Shown here piece by piece: positions 18-56,872 of a stretch of DNA of 64,000 bases. This stretch comes from Golubevia sp. BC0850. Its lineage: Eukaryota > Basidiomycota > Exobasidiomycetes > Golubeviales > Golubeviaceae. Below the pieces are notes generated by a model. It ran no database searches. It saw only the letters and a list, made by a program, of their open reading frames with translations, and had not been told where the DNA came from. The stretch's first letter is position 1. Each line of letters begins with the position of its first letter. Both the position numbers and the translations under genes were made by a program. The stretch covers positions 682,001 to 746,000 of the forward strand of contig JAAVVG010000003.1 of the NCBI GenBank assembly GCA_012976225.1, read 5' to 3'.

Positions 18-3000
18 GTTCTCGAAAACGAAAACGTACGCGTTGAAATGGAACTCTTCCAACTTTTCTCTCCCTCTCCCTCTTCCATTACTACTTTCCA
101 ACCAGCCAACCATCACCTTTTCTCCTCTGGATCATGTCTGACATCGTTCCAAGTCCCGATCCTTCAACCGTCAACTTGAATCCAAAAGAGAAAGTTGAAA
201 ACGAGAGCACTCTCGCCGATCTCTTCGCTCTTGACCCAGTGAGTTTCCACTTTCCTCTACTTCCATCCACCTTTCGTTGACCTTCTTTTCCCACGTTCAC
301 CCTTCTTTCAAAAGTACTCTGAAGTAGACTTCCAAAAGAGCACCGCTCTTTCACCAGAGGACTTGTGAGTCAGAGTAATCGAGGTCCAAAGCTCAGTACC
401 GAGTCTCGAAGGCTGACTCGATTCTCCACCTGTCTACCTTTTTCAAACCTTTCGAAAGCTATGTGGATGATCAAGACAGTCTCGGAGACATGTAAGAGCG
501 AAGAATCTGACGCATACATCCAACTTTCCGGCAAGCCGTCGACTGAGCTGCAACTTGTCTCACTTTTCTTCTCCATCACCTTCTTCCCTTATCCTAGCTC
601 TGCCAAGTCCAAACGTCTAGCAGAGGTCGCTCTCAATGGAATGTCTATCGGAGTAGCCACCGGACAACTCTTCAACGTCAGAGGACAGAGACTGAACTCG
701 GTTGAGCTAGGTCGCAGGTCCTTCACCTCTCTCGAATCACTTCAGTATCGTGCTTGGGAATCCTCGGTGCCTCTTCCTCACTTCAGCTTCAAGCATGCTA
801 AGACGCTCCAACAACGTGCCAACTCTGGTGGTGGAGGAGGAGGAGGAGCTAGAGCTGGAGCTGGAAACCCAGGTCCAGATCGCAGATCCAACTCGTCTCA
901 CTCTCGTCGCTACGATCCAACCGCTCCAACTCAGCTCTCTTCTGCCAACCAGCACGGGAATGTATCAGAAGGCTCCGGCTTGGATCTCAAGGGCCAGGCT
1001 CTCAAGGAGCTGTATCGCATCACCGGCGACTTGGTCGTCACTAGCGCCGACGTCTCTCACTTTGAGAAGAAGTACCCACCTCTCAAGCCTCTCCGTGAGT
1101 TCTCCGTTTGAGAAGGAAGAGGAAGAAGATGATGGAATGGAAGGAAAAGAGAATACTGACGTTCAACTCATCTGCTCCTTTTCTCTCTCTCTCTCTCCTT
1201 CCTAGTGAACGCTCAACATCGCATCGTTTGCATCAGAGAGGTGAGCTAGAACTGATCCGGGGAGTCACTAGAACGATCTACTGCTGATCTTTCTTCCTTG
1301 GCTTCTCTTCACACTTTCATCACGCAGTCTCAAAAGATCGAGCCCTCCTTCGACGACGAACGCAGAGCGAGCGAACAGACTGCCTGTCTCGCCTCTTACA
1401 ATCGCATCAAGGACCATCTTGACCAAGTGATGAGCTTCGCCTTCAAGATGCAAAGCGAGATCCACGAGAACCTCAGAGTCATCGAGGACAGAGCCAGAGC
1501 GGTGGGAGTGGACGACTCGAAGTCCAACGACGTAGCTCCGCTGCTTCTGAGAAAGACTCCCAGTCGCTCTTTCGATCAATACGGAGAGGTCAGAAGAAGA
1601 GGAGGCGAGTTCCCCGAGTTTCTCCCACCCGCAGCCCGTCTCAACCACCGTCAACAAGACTTTCCATCTTCATCTCAACAACTTCAGATCCGTTCTAGCT
1701 CCCCTCCTGTTTCTGGAGGTCCAGAGGAAGCGACTTCGGACAACGTAGGTCCTTCGAACGTCGTCATGCAGAACGGTGAAGGGGATGAGAATGGGAATGG
1801 GAATGGGAATGGAAATGGGAATGGAAATGGAGTCGATCGCTCCTCACGTCAAGGCTCTCCAGAAGCAGCAGAGAAGGTCGACAACAAAGAGGGAAGAAAG
1901 GACGATGAGGCAGCCGAGGTCAACTCTGGTTCAGACGGCTCCGCAAAAGAAGAAGATCAGGAAGAGAATAAAGGTCAAGGAGACGTCTCGATGACCAACG
2001 AGAAGGAGACCGTCGCCGTCGCCATCGTCATCGAGGCTCAATCCTCCTCCCCAGCCAAGCCAGTCGAAGACATCCCCATCTACGACAGAGCTCGTTCCGG
2101 TTCTCTCTCCTCCCCACCTTCCGATCCTGCAAAGACCACTGACGCTCTAGGATCTGAGGCTGGACTGCAATGCGATTACCAAACCAGTCCTGGTCCTTCT
2201 TCCGGAGGAGCTCTTAGGAAAATGGAAGGCGTCCAAGGAGACGAGTCCGAAGAAGAGGAAGAAGAGGTAGATGAGTTGATGGAGGGACCTTCTCAAGGCA
2301 AGACTGGTCTCTCTCAGAATCAAGGTCAGAAGATGGAGATCGACGAGGAAGAGGACCAATCGAAAGCGGCAGACGCAGCTCCCTTCCTCTCTTCTCCTGA
2401 TCGTCAACAAGCCATTTCCTCCCCTCAACGTCAAGGAAGTTCCTCCTCTTCCTCTCCTGAACGTCAAGAGAACGCTAGGCCCTTCGCGATGGTCAGAACC
2501 AACTCTCTTCTCAAAGACAGACTCTTTTCAAGAGGTAGAGAGAGATCCAGTCCTGAGAGAAACTTGAACTCATCCAGCGTCACTCTCGTCTCTCAAGAGG
2601 TCGTCATGGAGAGAGTGGAGGAGAGTTCCTCGAGTCCACTTCAACCTAGATTCGCAATGCAGACTCAGATGGACAACGGTCGAGTCGAATCCTCTTCTCC
2701 TTCCAACTCTCCAACTCCTTGGAAGAGTTCCAAGCCTCAAAATTTCTTCCCACCCTCCGTCTTTCGCAGCAGTGGGTTGAATCCAGCAAACGATCCGAAG
2801 ACTCCAGAGGGCCCAATCTCGACTCTGTACTCGAATCCAGATGCTCAATCTTCGAAGGATCAAGAGAAGCAACTCGCAGTCGACACTTCAAAGAGACCCA
2901 CCTCTTCAGGAGGTCTTCAGTTCTCCACTACTTCCAGACAATTCGTTCCAGGTCTTTCTGGTCTTCAGAACCCTCCAAGCTCGAACACAATCAAGGAGAT

Positions 3001-3277
3001 CACTTCTGGTCAGATGGAGGGAGTGGACGGTAGAAAGAAGACCTCGAGTCTCGAGAGAAAGAAGAGTGGCGGTGGATTCAAAGGAGGAAAGCCAGAAGCC
3101 AAGAAGCCCCCCAAGCTTCTTACTTCTAAAGAGCTGGCGGAATTAGAAAAGGAAGAGGAGAAGTGAGAGAGGGGTGCTAGATTGAAAGAATGGACCGAAA
3201 CGAAATTGTCGACTCTGCCTCTCATGGTGATTGTAAATTCTCAGATACGCAAAACAGCCTTTGGTAATGGATGGACT
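18..3277 (+). repeat. Left arm of 3.26 kb inverted repeat
   Basis: This segment recurs in reverse complement at 8088-11347, with left and right coordinates summing to 11365. Open frames on both strands and in several overlapping phases translate identically in the two arms, which requires base-level identity rather than only protein similarity. One difference was seen, near the inner edge (3264 G against A in the other arm). The inner edge is sharp: similarity stops after 3277. Identity stops outward at about 18, but a short GTTTCA(A)GCG likeness just outside both outer edges leaves open that the repeat continues past the window start with a small indel. The arm holds one complete gene with about 115 bp upstream and 110 bp downstream. 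No transposase or terminal target duplication was seen. Confidence 0.95.
134..3166 (+). CDS. Hypothetical Ser-rich protein, left copy
   Basis: I do not recognise a family. Five exons close in phase: 134-238, 315-364, 412-1094, 1206-1240 and 1328-3166, giving 903 residues with GTGAGT/GTGAGC donors throughout. The start is the ATG at 134, which opens the first exon and gives a continuous frame through all splice junctions. The N-terminal part (to about residue 350) looks folded, with a helical segment around SQKIEPSFDDERRASEQ leading into a heptad-like stretch. The remaining 550 residues are low complexity, rich in Ser, Pro, Glu and Gln, with an Asn-Gly run coded by GGGAAT-type repeats at 1784-1830 and many SSP motifs that could be kinase sites. 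The C-terminus is Lys/Glu rich. An identical gene lies in the other arm, so dosage may be doubled. A role in cytoskeleton or chromatin would be guesswork. Confidence 0.75.
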
Positions 3278-8087: not shown

Positions 8088-11000
8088 AGTCCATCCATTA
8101 TCAAAGGCTGTTTTGCGTATCTGAGAATTTACAATCACCATGAGAGGCAGAGTCGACAATTTCGTTTCGGTCCATTCTTTCAATCTAGCACCCCTCTCTC
8201 ACTTCTCCTCTTCCTTTTCTAATTCCGCCAGCTCTTTAGAAGTAAGAAGCTTGGGGGGCTTCTTGGCTTCTGGCTTTCCTCCTTTGAATCCACCGCCACT
8301 CTTCTTTCTCTCGAGACTCGAGGTCTTCTTTCTACCGTCCACTCCCTCCATCTGACCAGAAGTGATCTCCTTGATTGTGTTCGAGCTTGGAGGGTTCTGA
8401 AGACCAGAAAGACCTGGAACGAATTGTCTGGAAGTAGTGGAGAACTGAAGACCTCCTGAAGAGGTGGGTCTCTTTGAAGTGTCGACTGCGAGTTGCTTCT
8501 CTTGATCCTTCGAAGATTGAGCATCTGGATTCGAGTACAGAGTCGAGATTGGGCCCTCTGGAGTCTTCGGATCGTTTGCTGGATTCAACCCACTGCTGCG
8601 AAAGACGGAGGGTGGGAAGAAATTTTGAGGCTTGGAACTCTTCCAAGGAGTTGGAGAGTTGGAAGGAGAAGAGGATTCGACTCGACCGTTGTCCATCTGA
8701 GTCTGCATTGCGAATCTAGGTTGAAGTGGACTCGAGGAACTCTCCTCCACTCTCTCCATGACGACCTCTTGAGAGACGAGAGTGACGCTGGATGAGTTCA
8801 AGTTTCTCTCAGGACTGGATCTCTCTCTACCTCTTGAAAAGAGTCTGTCTTTGAGAAGAGAGTTGGTTCTGACCATCGCGAAGGGCCTAGCGTTCTCTTG
8901 ACGTTCAGGAGAGGAAGAGGAGGAACTTCCTTGACGTTGAGGGGAGGAAATGGCTTGTTGACGATCAGGAGAAGAGAGGAAGGGAGCTGCGTCTGCCGCT
9001 TTCGATTGGTCCTCTTCCTCGTCGATCTCCATCTTCTGACCTTGATTCTGAGAGAGACCAGTCTTGCCTTGAGAAGGTCCCTCCATCAACTCATCTACCT
9101 CTTCTTCCTCTTCTTCGGACTCGTCTCCTTGGACGCCTTCCATTTTCCTAAGAGCTCCTCCGGAAGAAGGACCAGGACTGGTTTGGTAATCGCATTGCAG
9201 TCCAGCCTCAGATCCTAGAGCGTCAGTGGTCTTTGCAGGATCGGAAGGTGGGGAGGAGAGAGAACCGGAACGAGCTCTGTCGTAGATGGGGATGTCTTCG
9301 ACTGGCTTGGCTGGGGAGGAGGATTGAGCCTCGATGACGATGGCGACGGCGACGGTCTCCTTCTCGTTGGTCATCGAGACGTCTCCTTGACCTTTATTCT
9401 CTTCCTGATCTTCTTCTTTTGCGGAGCCGTCTGAACCAGAGTTGACCTCGGCTGCCTCATCGTCCTTTCTTCCCTCTTTGTTGTCGACCTTCTCTGCTGC
9501 TTCTGGAGAGCCTTGACGTGAGGAGCGATCGACTCCATTTCCATTCCCATTTCCATTCCCATTCCCATTCCCATTCTCATCCCCTTCACCGTTCTGCATG
9601 ACGACGTTCGAAGGACCTACGTTGTCCGAAGTCGCTTCCTCTGGACCTCCAGAAACAGGAGGGGAGCTAGAACGGATCTGAAGTTGTTGAGATGAAGATG
9701 GAAAGTCTTGTTGACGGTGGTTGAGACGGGCTGCGGGTGGGAGAAACTCGGGGAACTCGCCTCCTCTTCTTCTGACCTCTCCGTATTGATCGAAAGAGCG
9801 ACTGGGAGTCTTTCTCAGAAGCAGCGGAGCTACGTCGTTGGACTTCGAGTCGTCCACTCCCACCGCTCTGGCTCTGTCCTCGATGACTCTGAGGTTCTCG
9901 TGGATCTCGCTTTGCATCTTGAAGGCGAAGCTCATCACTTGGTCAAGATGGTCCTTGATGCGATTGTAAGAGGCGAGACAGGCAGTCTGTTCGCTCGCTC
10001 TGCGTTCGTCGTCGAAGGAGGGCTCGATCTTTTGAGACTGCGTGATGAAAGTGTGAAGAGAAGCCAAGGAAGAAAGATCAGCAGTAGATCGTTCTAGTGA
10101 CTCCCCGGATCAGTTCTAGCTCACCTCTCTGATGCAAACGATGCGATGTTGAGCGTTCACTAGGAAGGAGAGAGAGAGAGAGAAAAGGAGCAGATGAGTT
10201 GAACGTCAGTATTCTCTTTTCCTTCCATTCCATCATCTTCTTCCTCTTCCTTCTCAAACGGAGAACTCACGGAGAGGCTTGAGAGGTGGGTACTTCTTCT
10301 CAAAGTGAGAGACGTCGGCGCTAGTGACGACCAAGTCGCCGGTGATGCGATACAGCTCCTTGAGAGCCTGGCCCTTGAGATCCAAGCCGGAGCCTTCTGA
10401 TACATTCCCGTGCTGGTTGGCAGAAGAGAGCTGAGTTGGAGCGGTTGGATCGTAGCGACGAGAGTGAGACGAGTTGGATCTGCGATCTGGACCTGGGTTT
10501 CCAGCTCCAGCTCTAGCTCCTCCTCCTCCTCCACCACCAGAGTTGGCACGTTGTTGGAGCGTCTTAGCATGCTTGAAGCTGAAGTGAGGAAGAGGCACCG
10601 AGGATTCCCAAGCACGATACTGAAGTGATTCGAGAGAGGTGAAGGACCTGCGACCTAGCTCAACCGAGTTCAGTCTCTGTCCTCTGACGTTGAAGAGTTG
10701 TCCGGTGGCTACTCCGATAGACATTCCATTGAGAGCGACCTCTGCTAGACGTTTGGACTTGGCAGAGCTAGGATAAGGGAAGAAGGTGATGGAGAAGAAA
10801 AGTGAGACAAGTTGCAGCTCAGTCGACGGCTTGCCGGAAAGTTGGATGTATGCGTCAGATTCTTCGCTCTTACATGTCTCCGAGACTGTCTTGATCATCC
10901 ACATAGCTTTCGAAAGGTTTGAAAAAGGTAGACAGGTGGAGAATCGAGTCAGCCTTCGAGACTCGGTACTGAGCTTTGGACCTCGATTACTCTGACTCAC

Positions 11001-11347
11001 AAGTCCTCTGGTGAAAGAGCGGTGCTCTTTTGGAAGTCTACTTCAGAGTACTTTTGAAAGAAGGGTGAACGTGGGAAAAGAAGGTCAACGAAAGGTGGAT
11101 GGAAGTAGAGGAAAGTGGAAACTCACTGGGTCAAGAGCGAAGAGATCGGCGAGAGTGCTCTCGTTTTCAACTTTCTCTTTTGGATTCAAGTTGACGGTTG
11201 AAGGATCGGGACTTGGAACGATGTCAGACATGATCCAGAGGAGAAAAGGTGATGGTTGGCTGGTTGGAAAGTAGTAATGGAAGAGGGAGAGGGAGAGAAA
11301 AGTTGGAAGAGTTCCATTTCAACGCGTACGTTTTCGTTTTCGAGAAC
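8088..11347 (-). repeat. Right arm of 3.26 kb inverted repeat
   Basis: Reverse complement of 18-3277. The arms are separated by a 4810 bp single-copy spacer (3278-8087). The arm ends 594 bp beyond the septin stop codon and carries the second copy of the unknown gene on the minus strand. Near-identity implies a very recent duplication, ongoing gene conversion between arms, or an assembly error that joined two copies of one locus. The distinct flanks on all four edges are what a real inverted duplication would show. Confidence 0.95.
8199..11231 (-). CDS. Hypothetical Ser-rich protein, right copy
   Basis: This is the mirror copy of the gene at 134-3166. The predicted exons are the mirror positions (11231-11127, 11050-11001, 10953-10271, 10159-10125, 10037-8199) and code for the same 903 residues. 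All splice sites are preserved, so nothing in the sequence says which copy is the original or that either is decaying. About 116 bp of shared upstream sequence are inside the arm, and upstream of that the two copies have different flanks, so their promoters may differ. The two copies are transcribed toward each other across the spacer. Confidence 0.75.
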
Positions 11348-52802: not shown

Positions 52803-53830
52803 ATGAAGGTTTCAACTCAAAGGATCCTAAGACATCAATCGCAATTCAGCAATCATAACCGTCAATTGAGTCAATCCAGCAAGAGCCTTCAAGTTACGGC
52901 TGCTTCTGCTTCTTCCTCCAAACCTTCAACCAAAAGATCGTCTCGTCTTGCTAAAAGACCAGGTTCAGATCTAGTTGGCCAACCAGATCCAATCAGCAAT
53001 CTGCGACCGATCAAGTATGGCTCTGCCTTCGAATCAGACCCATCTTCCTCCTCTCCCAATTCCAACTCGAGCTCAACTCATCCTTATTCGTTGGCCGAAT
53101 TCACCTCTCCCTCCTCCAGTAATGGGTTGGGATCCAGCTCAAAGAATTCAGCACCCAAGCCTTATTCGAATTACTTTTTGAGATTGGCAGGGGAACTGGA
53201 AGAGGCGGAATTGATTCATAGACTCAGAAGATCCAAAGCCGATTCTTTCAATCAGGTGAGTGTGCTTTGAAGTTTCGAGAACTAAGTTTGGTGTGGACAT
53301 AGAAAGAGAAAAAGAGAGCTTTTCGCAGACAAGAGCCGAGAGGCGAAAGAAATGCACCTGGAGACCGTGGCAGTCTAACCTGACGTTCAATCTTCCCTCT
53401 TCCCTCTCCTCTTGTCACTTACTACCTCTTCCATTTCTTCCCTCAGCGGTTCTGGCAAGACAACAATTCCAGATTTCAATCCGATCTGAAAAATTTCACC
53501 TCAGCCAACAGCAATCCATCTCAAATTCCAGCTCCATCGTCTCAATCTACATCTTCGAATTCACCTTCTACCTCTATTCCCACCTCAACATCTTCTAGTC
53601 AACTTCAAGCAACTTCCGCAAAATCCGCAAAAGCTTCTCCGGAAGTAGATCTAGCGCCTTTCTATTCCGCTTGGTTGTCGGCCAATTCTACAAGACATCA
53701 AAGATACAATCGAAGTTTGGTTGGCCAGATATTCAGAGATTTGGGACCTGCTGCTAGATATTCGGTGTTGAGGAAATGGGTTGGAGTGGTTAGGAAATGG
53801 GAGGAACTACGGAGGAGAGGTCCGGCTTGA
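52803..53830 (+). CDS. COA8: COA8/APOPT1-family protein
   Basis: Mitochondrial cytochrome c oxidase assembly factor 8 family (DUF2315), which supports complex IV and protects it from oxidative turnover. Two exons in phase: 52803-53255 and 53447-53830, 278 residues. The start is the first ATG, giving MKVSTQRILRHQ, a basic Ser-rich N-terminus suited to mitochondrial import. Family sequence is clear in PDPISNLRPIKYG and HPYSLAEF. A helical region with FLRLAGELEEAELIHRL follows, then the splice junction falls directly before RFWQDNNSRF, and the C-terminal part has LAPFYSAWLSANSTRHQRYN. A Ser/Thr/Pro insertion separates the last two blocks, longer than in animals. Function in this organism is inferred from family only. 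Confidence 0.85.
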
Positions 53831-54321: not shown

Positions 54322-54681
54322 TTAACCTCCACTGACAGGCGGGATGATTGCGATTTCTTCACCTCCCTTCAATTCTAGACTTGCAAATTGATCTTCATCT
54401 ATCATCTCTTCATTCAAAGACCACTTGACTCCACTCTCTGAGCTTAATATCGATTTGAGTCCTTCTAGATCTGAATTTGATGGAGAGTTGATTTTCAGTT
54501 GAGAGAGGATTGAGCCTGGCAAGTCTCTGAATGGTAAAGTAGAAGCTTTCAAGGCAGATTCAGATTCAATGGTCGAAGAGATGGGAATGTTGATGTTGAG
54601 AGAGGAAGTTCCAGCTGCTTCTTTGGCGGAAGCGAAGAACAGAACTTTGACGAAAGTTGCAGTTGTTCCGCTCTCTTTCAT
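54322..54681 (-). other. MoaD/MOCS2A domain with internal ATG
   Basis: The C-terminal segment of the fusion gene, marked separately because the ATG at 54681 offers an alternative start. From it the product would be 119 residues, a little longer than typical MOCS2A (about 85-90). The sulfur-carrier tail ends VSGG followed directly by TAA, so the Gly-Gly is the true C-terminus as the chemistry requires. Whether the internal start, protease cleavage or the full fusion is used cannot be told from the sequence. Confidence 0.6.
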
Positions 54682-56872
54682 TTCCGCCTTCTCCTTTCCA
54701 GTTTCGTTAGAATGAGAGATCCCGACAATAGTAGGAGCAGCAGTACTTGTTCCCGCAGTTGAAGCTCCGTTGACAGCCCCGGGAGTAGCGGAAGTGGTCG
54801 GACTGATCGATCGTTCCGAAGTTGAACTCTTCGATTTACTCTTCTTCAGGTCTTGACTGTTTCTTCTGCTTTCTTGATGTTGATGGACCATGTCTTCGAA
54901 CTTGTGAAACTTATCACCAGTCTTCTTGATCGACTTGTGCATGAACTTGGAGAATCCACCTTCACTTCCTGAATTTCTCTTTTCATTTCCAGCTCCATTA
55001 ACACCTTTCTTCCCGACGTCTTGTTCGTCTTCTTCGGCTGGTCTCTCGTGAGTTGGATCCAAAGCTGAGCTTTCAGCTCCATTGGCGGCCGGAGTAGTCG
55101 CACTCTTCTCGTTTCCACTTGTACTGCTGAATGACCTTTCTAGAGGGTTTTCATTCAAAGTTTCAGAAGGAGTTTGGAAAGCTGAAGAGTTAACTGCTAA
55201 TAATGAACCTGTTGTTGTAGTCTTCTTGAGGTCTGAGAAGCCATTTTCTTGAGTCTGTTCAGGTTTCTCTTCTTTGACTTCCTTCTCATCTTCATTCTTC
55301 TCCTGATCTACTTGTCCTTCTTTTTCATCTCCTCCCAAAATAACCCATTCGGAAGCTCCAATTTCTTCCCCGCATTCTTCCTTGAACCTCCTCTCCATTC
55401 CTTCTCTCCTCTCGGAGCAGAGAGTGACTAGTTGTTTCCAATAGCTTTCATGGACTTTCTCATCGTACTGGAAGTTCAAAAGACCACCGAAATCAGTAGT
55501 CAATTGTTGAGGTGGGACTTCTCCCTTTATCGCTTCGTCGAATTTGCACTTGGACTTGGTGTTTGGATCGATGAAGGATTGAATGGCGTTCCAGAAGACT
55601 TTGAAAACCCAAGGAACTGAAATTAAGAAAAGAATTGAGCAAGGGAATTGATGAGCAAGGGAGGCACACACTCATGTTTCGAAAACTTGGCATAAAAGTA
55701 CTCACCATTGATGCAAAGAGCAACTCCCAATCTTTCAACGTAATGATTTTGTAGAATGTATAGCATTAATTTGGCATTCGCGATCGACGTTGGATTCCTA
55801 GAACGGGAATCGAAGTTGATGAGAAGAGCTAATTGTTCTACTCCGGGTGGCATAAGGTCGATACATCTTTCTAGAATCTGTGAAAGTGATGGAACACAAG
55901 ATGAATGATTTGCAATAGAGAGAGGGGTAAGAAGAGAGGTCAGTAAAACGGAAGGGACGGGAAGTCGATCCGTACGCTACTCGGTCCGTCTCACTCCTCG
56001 AGCAGAGCCCAGCAAGAAGCGCTGAATCTTGGAGGAAGAAGTTCAAAGTAGATCTCCTTGGAAAACTTTCGACTCTTCCCAATGAGTGTTGTCTTTGTTG
56101 GAGATTTGTTCCTACTTCACAGCTCATCCTCATGCTCTCTTTTTTCCCTGTGGTCCTCACCTCCCTCTCTTGTCCAAGTACTCACCCAAACTGCAAATCT
56201 CATCTGCCTGGGGCCTTCCTTTGTGTTGTTTCTATGAGGATGCATCATGTGTAGAGGTCTTCCCAACTTATCGTAACCAAGAACACTCTCTTTCCCACAT
56301 CTTGCTTCTTCTTCCACCTCATCTTCCTGAATCTCATCAACTCCAAATTCCCTTCTCCAAGAGATGGTTTCTTCCAATCTCCTCTTAGCTACTTCCGAAT
56401 CCCATTTACTAGCTCTTAGATATCTCAGCAACGATTCTCTACAGAGCAAACGAAGCTTTTCAAAAGTAGTTGGAGGTGCATAATCATTTGAGAGTGGAGC
56501 TTTCAAACCCTTGGGGAACCCTTTTCCAGAGGCAGCTTCCTTGAAGTAAGAGAGCATTGAATCATACTTGGTTTGCTGATCTGAGGTTAAGTCCGGCTTG
56601 GAGGTGTTGGGAGGAACTTCCGAGGAGGTTGAAGCTGGAGGAGCTGGATGTGGAAAGACTGTCTTGAAAGGAATCTCACTTCCTGAGAAGTTCGACTTGA
56701 TTTGTGTGATCGCAGGTCTATTTGAATCTTTGCTTCTGACTCTTCCGACTGTTGAAGATGAAGGCTTGGAGGATTGAGAGGTGCTAGTTGATGCTCTTGA
56801 CATGGTAGAATAAGCTCGAGTTAAAAGCCGAGACGTCGTTGTTCCAGATTGAGAAGGTTCGGTTGAAGCCAT
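54322..56872 (-). CDS. Sec14/CRAL-TRIO protein fused to MoaD/MOCS2A domain
   Basis: Three exons join in phase: 56872-56186, 55877-55706 and 55616-54322, 717 residues with no stop between two unrelated domains. Residues about 130-340 form CRAL-TRIO_N plus the Sec14 lipid-binding fold (ESLLRYLRASKWDSEVAKRRL, ANAKLMLYILQNHYVERLG, VPWVFKVFWNAIQSFIDP), a phosphatidylinositol/phospholipid transfer module. A charged Ser/Glu/Lys-rich linker follows. Residues about 600-717 read as molybdopterin synthase small subunit: VKVLFFASAKEAAG, WSLNEEMI, GGEEIAIIPPVSGG, ending in the Gly-Gly that is thiocarboxylated by the MOCS3/Uba4 enzyme. An in-frame ATG at 54681 lies just nine residues before VKVLFF and could start a free MoaD of 119 residues. 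All MoaD landmarks are kept. Separate genes sharing the frame is possible but would require about 250 stop-free linker codons by chance. Confidence 0.9.

Follow-up and report, generated by a model that had tools for sequence, protein, structure and literature searches.

The sulfur carrier of molybdopterin synthase (MoaD, MOCS2A or CnxG) is usually a small separate protein encoded by a gene of its own. The known MoaD proteins of eukaryotes are small and free. Chains that hold MoaD together with another domain are described for prokaryotes, namely MoaD-MoaE, MoaD-MoeB (archaea) and AOR-MoaD (Azoarcus), in the accessible text of PMC1779556 and PMC11237513, and the fungal gene reported here has the same general property. 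In the bacterial AOR-MoaD, MoaD is joined to the C-terminus of another enzyme, which is also its position in the fungal fusion (PMC1779556, in the portion available). MoaD-MoaE fusions are proposed to be non-functional until they are cut, since MoaD needs an accessible C-terminus, according to excerpts of PMC11237513. In these prokaryotic chains the partner of MoaD is either a member of the cofactor pathway or a user of the cofactor, whereas the fungal partner is a lipid-transfer protein.

A second point of reference is human MOCS2, in which the frames for MoaD and MoaE overlap (PMC9370521, available passages). The fusion locus resembles this bicistronic gene in that a single gene accounts for MoaD and a second product, but it differs in having one frame and a partner other than MoaE. 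A search of the open-licence PMC literature for a pairing of Sec14/CRAL-TRIO with MoaD found none, and broader searches gave none among the matches listed. The architecture may already be present, unremarked, in public protein databases.

Gene model and domains of the fusion locus

The window, by which we mean the whole stretch of 64,000 nucleotides that was analyzed (C33:682001-746000), belongs to a genome of 25.8 Mb in 64 contigs. Its introns, together with the size and gene content of the genome, indicate a fungus, perhaps a basidiomycete. The minus strand of the window contains, at 56872-54322, a three-exon fusion gene encoding a protein of 717 residues plus stop (2154 nt spliced, with no internal stops). 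The exons (56872-56186, 55877-55706 and 55616-54322) are separated by two introns of 308 nt (56185-55878) and 89 nt (55705-55617), both with GT-AG borders. This model was derived from the DNA alone by splicing open reading frames, the exons being chosen by eye on splice sites and domain continuity. The encoded protein starts with a Pdr16-type Sec14 module, continues with a charged linker of 218 residues and ends with MoaD.

The preliminary description of this DNA proposed a single stop-free reading path from the Sec14 domain into MoaD. This is correct for the last exon, where a stop-to-stop frame of 449 aa (55671-54322, minus strand) includes the end of CRAL-TRIO, the linker and all of MoaD, but what precedes in the Sec14 domain is brought into this frame only by removal of the two introns. 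The order of parts that it gave, a Sec14 domain and a charged linker followed by a complete MoaD with a Gly-Gly end, is confirmed at the level of open reading frames by Pfam, NCBIfam and the spliced frame. The fused reading frame is real, and both domains are intact as judged from their sequences.

The Sec14 part matches two Pfam families above their gathering cut-offs: CRAL_TRIO_N (PF03765; residues 102-168, 56369-56569; 4.4e-7) and CRAL_TRIO (PF00650; residues 191-331, 55483-56302; 1.9e-37), the latter being split by both introns. It also matches 19 PDB sequences, of which the best four are PDR16 (7.4e-48 to 9.5e-48), followed by Sec14p at 2e-14. The alignment with PDR16 spans both exon joins (query residues 24-272, corresponding to residues 129-377 of the fusion). 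Residues E277 and K309 of the fusion align with E235 and K267 of Pdr16, and a Pdr16 in which both of these are changed is defective in PI binding (PMC4331669, accessible part). The Sec14 part is a predicted PI transfer module of the Pdr16 type (Pdr16/Pdr17), with the predicted PI-binding Glu and Lys retained. It is similar to the PITP Pdr16/Sfh3 (Pdr17-type) both in the overall match (7.4e-48) and in the two PI-binding residues; however, the homologous part runs to residue 331 of the 351 of PDR16 (chain 4m8z_A), and the fusion adds the linker and MoaD beyond it.

A Pdr16-like paralogue (42.6% identity across 129 residues) is present on contig C20. No MoaD was seen at this gene. Among the reading frames at its 3' end there is a charged stretch, continuing to a stop and without a Pfam match, that could be the tail of the paralogue. 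If it truly is, a charged tail would be ordinary for the Pdr16-like family in this fungus, and MoaD would be the addition. Searches with a 278-aa Sec14 query gave 56 pattern matches in a collection of prokaryotic contigs and 26 in a collection of viral contigs, none of which was confirmed; both results are uninformative on fungi.

The fusion gene has a convergent neighbor, a plus-strand frame (53384-53830) that matches the cytochrome c oxidase assembly factor COA8 (1.3e-7) and ends about 490 nt from the stop of the fusion gene. The window also contains a perfect inverted repeat (18-3277 and 8088-11347), with arms of 3260 nt at 100% identity and a spacer of 4810 nt. Frames of 262 and 636 aa lie within the arms, and those of the first arm matched no Pfam family at a threshold of 0.001. 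Possible origins of the repeat are a recent duplication, the presence of a mobile element and an effect of assembly.

The MoaD domain and the molybdenum cofactor genes

The MoaD/MOCS2A domain comprises residues 609-717 (54325-54651) and ends with PPVSGG, directly followed by the stop codon TAA, Gly-Gly being the last residues of the protein. Pfam ThiS matches residues 657-717 of the full-length protein with 31.7 bits (2.2e-7) and an end piece of 125 aa with 37.8 bits (2.8e-9), the cut-off being 22.5 in both cases. The same end piece is covered by NCBIfam moaD over the full profile (1-80 of 80, E = 2.1e-12), which is the best among the six NCBIfam families listed for it. The match, at 47.7 bits, does not reach the equivalog cut-off of 66.15 bits of this model, which is the one used for bacterial and archaeal genomes. 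As a result, the assignment to MoaD is based on the Pfam family, the coverage of the entire profile, the terminal Gly-Gly and the other genes of the genome. The full moaD profile, the ThiS match and the Gly-Gly before the stop are features shared with MoaD, MOCS2A and CnxG, while the location of the domain at the end of a 717-aa protein is not. The best PDB match of this part is the molybdopterin synthase sulfur carrier subunit 5mpo (E = 0.0013), which we take to be human MOCS2A. A single-sequence AlphaFold2 model of the 125-aa piece was uninformative (pLDDT 36.1, pTM 0.27).

No MoaD other than that of the fusion was detected in the genome. The ThiS family gave one match in the whole 25.8 Mb (one candidate), which is the fusion; a protein search for a second MoaD up to an E-value of 10 returned only the fusion itself (two candidates scored); and the DNA pattern for PP[VI][ST]GG followed by a stop occurs at one site, the fusion end, with 0 sites in the reversed control. 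These searches are of a kind that may miss a diverged, intron-split copy or one located in a gap of the 64-contig assembly. With the family, protein and pattern searches agreeing on a sole MoaD, the case for the fusion is stronger than the preliminary description could know.

Other genes of the molybdenum cofactor pathway are found elsewhere in the genome. A single MoaE gene is located on contig C44 (3.2e-28). Pieces of MoaA, whose matches are below the family cut-off, share a contig with MoaC, and MoeA and a separate Urm1 gene are also encoded. A Uba4/MOCS3-like gene was recognized by its ThiF part and, reading by eye, by a rhodanese-type CRRGNDS loop downstream; Pfam Rhodanese had no match in this gene. 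The five Pfam domains expected of a nitrate reductase (Oxidored_molyb, Mo-co_dimer, Cyt-b5, FAD_binding_6 and NAD_binding_1) are all found in one gene, distributed over five frames, and a further Oxidored_molyb gene is located on contig C10. Since the fusion is the sole MoaD detected while MoaA, MoaC, MoaE, MoeA, a Uba4-like gene and nitrate reductase are all present, cofactor synthesis in this fungus very probably depends on the fusion locus.

Two of the pathway genes have features of their own. The MoaC frame (L047 2580-3902, minus strand) includes a Met of its own, and its N-terminus is strongly basic (+11 in 48 residues) though not unusually amphipathic (reached by 1859 of 5000 shuffles). 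This suggests a separate mitochondrial MoaC rather than a MoaA-MoaC fusion. Upstream of MoeA (L048 1953-3155, plus strand), the same frame contains what appears by eye to be the end of a MogA domain, together with a His-rich stretch.

Continuity of the join and the number of products

The linker (residues 381-598, 54682-55335) is rich in Ser, Glu, Lys and Thr, and lies wholly within one exon in the frame of the two domains. A tested stretch of 642 nt (55341-54700) has no stops in the fusion frame, and the two alternative frames have 5 and 15. A codon-usage score, trained on 16 other long ORFs of the window that are unreviewed and include two second copies from the inverted repeat, gives the linker +0.40 bits per codon when read in the fusion frame versus -0.03 and -0.06 in the others. 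In the rest of the gene, the fusion frame scores +0.30 in exon 1, -0.04 in exon 2, which is short, +0.25 where the last exon encodes the end of Sec14, and +0.44 in MoaD; the flanking stretches range from -0.55 to +0.03. Since a value of +0.22 occurs in one frame of intron 1, and one of +0.20 in a wrong frame of this Sec14 end, the score is a guide and no proof. When the choice among synonymous codons is considered alone, the fusion frame is favored in the linker (0.20 versus -0.02 and 0.02) and is not singled out in MoaD (0.18 versus 0.08 and 0.18).

The reading that we favor, and consider likely, is that one gene gives rise to one protein, in which a Pdr16/Pdr17-type PI transfer module is connected by a long flexible linker to a C-terminal, working MoaD, possibly near membranes. 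Two separate adjacent genes, joined in appearance by a linker that is open by chance or through an assembly or sequencing error, would agree with the usual occurrence of MoaD as its own gene. We give this explanation almost no credence. In first-order Markov simulations, a linker of 642 nt was open in the given frame in only 3 of 20,000 runs, whichever of two base compositions was used; 60 simulated windows gave a longest stop-free stretch of 249 codons (mean 196) versus the 449 observed; and one error could not produce about 200 codons that resemble coding sequence, with a signal specific to the frame. The products could also be separated at the level of the mRNA. An in-frame ATG, Met599 (54679-54681), is a candidate start for a free MoaD, being located ten residues upstream of the MoaD profile match with a G at -3. 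However, 33 ATGs precede it in the spliced coding sequence, counting all frames and including the start itself, so that leaky scanning to Met599 is implausible. The suggestion in the preliminary description that two products are made from one mRNA, as in MOCS2, is rejected for the same reason, and also because the parts are in a single frame with neither a stop nor a frame change between them, and MoaE is encoded elsewhere (contig C44).

Another possibility is a nested gene: a shorter mRNA that starts in the linker would yield a free MoaD of 119 aa from Met599, and the MoaD tail of the long mRNA would matter little. The position and context of Met599, and the small and free state of the known eukaryotic MoaD proteins, favor such an arrangement. 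We nevertheless regard it as unlikely. The linker codes in the fusion frame, Met599 would need its own promoter in view of the preceding ATGs, and it takes no more than ordinary chance to find a Met within about ten residues of where a domain begins. From 57400 to 53700, the sense strand has no start of any of the motifs AATAAA, ATTAAA, TATAAA, TATATA and TATAAG; the lack of the three TATA-type motifs in the linker is weak evidence against a nested promoter, because they are also missing upstream of Met1, and the fusion gene must have a genuine promoter and a genuine polyadenylation site that do without any of the five. Alternatively, the fused chain could be made and MoaD then released by proteolysis in the flexible linker, the free domain being the working carrier. 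The linker is long and charged, and a JAMM protease cuts a linear MoaD-MoaE fusion, as cited in the accessible text of PMC11237513. We consider this improbable, as the location of MoaD at the C-terminus already leaves Gly-Gly free, and neither activation nor docking into MoaE would need cleavage; the fusion could work uncut. Finally, the MoaD-like tail might have lost its role in the cofactor and instead serve the lipid-transfer protein to which it is attached, perhaps in regulation or conjugation as ubiquitin-like tails do. Ubiquitin-like relatives of ThiS and MoaD also act as protein modifiers (PMC2948915 and PMC4443979, available portions), and the score of the domain falls short of the moaD equivalog cut-off. 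This is highly improbable, since it would leave MoaE and nitrate reductase without any MoaD detected in the genome, and Urm1 is present separately.

Possible working and placement of the fusion protein

We infer that the cell produces the fused polypeptide, uses it as MoaD and keeps it at membranes. In such a protein, an enzyme of the Uba4/MOCS3 type would adenylate the free Gly-Gly tail of MoaD, leading to a thiocarboxylate. The thiocarboxylated tail would then dock into the separately encoded MoaE, where cPMP would be converted to the molybdopterin that serves nitrate reductase and other molybdenum enzymes. The part played by the Sec14 module would be to hold the sulfur carrier close to membranes, and the long linker would allow MoaD to reach its partners during the membrane visits of this module. 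The cofactor step may, in this manner, be tied to the membrane through the Sec14 part.

Two further segments could contribute to membrane placement. The first 48 residues (56729-56872) have a net charge of +6 and an amphipathic 18-mer (residues 10-27), the best hydrophobic moment of this region, which was reached by 59 of 5000 shuffles. Judged by the general features of presequences, this N-terminus looks like a putative mitochondrial presequence. In the linker, a cationic amphipathic stretch (residues 509-526, 54898-54951) has the highest 18-residue hydrophobic moment of the protein, reached by 91 of 5000 linker shuffles, and is a possible membrane-contact helix. Both shuffle counts are only suggestive, because the two stretches were chosen after the sequence had been viewed.

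In plants, mutation of the exporter Atm3 causes cPMP to accumulate within mitochondria (PMC9370521, accessible passages). By analogy, a sulfur carrier held at the mitochondrial surface is a reasonable idea. The N-terminus of MoaE has a net charge of -4 and no presequence-like feature, an observation that speaks against work in the matrix. A more specific proposal is that the fused protein is the working MoaD, held on a membrane by its PI-binding Sec14 module, perhaps assisted by the amphipathic linker stretch and the presequence-like N-terminus, and possibly at the mitochondrial surface where cPMP exits. We put this forward only tentatively, as a possibility that we would not expect to hold in all its parts.

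Should the fusion be expressed, this organism, with its apparent need for the molybdenum cofactor, relies on a sulfur carrier attached to a lipid-transfer protein. Such a protein would be a natural experiment on the spatial organization of molybdopterin synthase and would provide a handle on how cPMP leaving the mitochondria meets the next enzyme. Expression also carries the prediction that loss of this Pdr16-type gene abolishes the use of nitrate, linking lipid transfer and nitrate use, two processes that are unconnected in the open-licence literature found. A membrane-held fusion would further mean that cofactor synthesis is placed by, and possibly responsive to, the lipid state of the membrane.

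A second ATG, at Met24, has a good context (accATG), and initiation there would remove part of the presequence-like N-terminus. Alternative use of this start could possibly result in dual localization of the protein.
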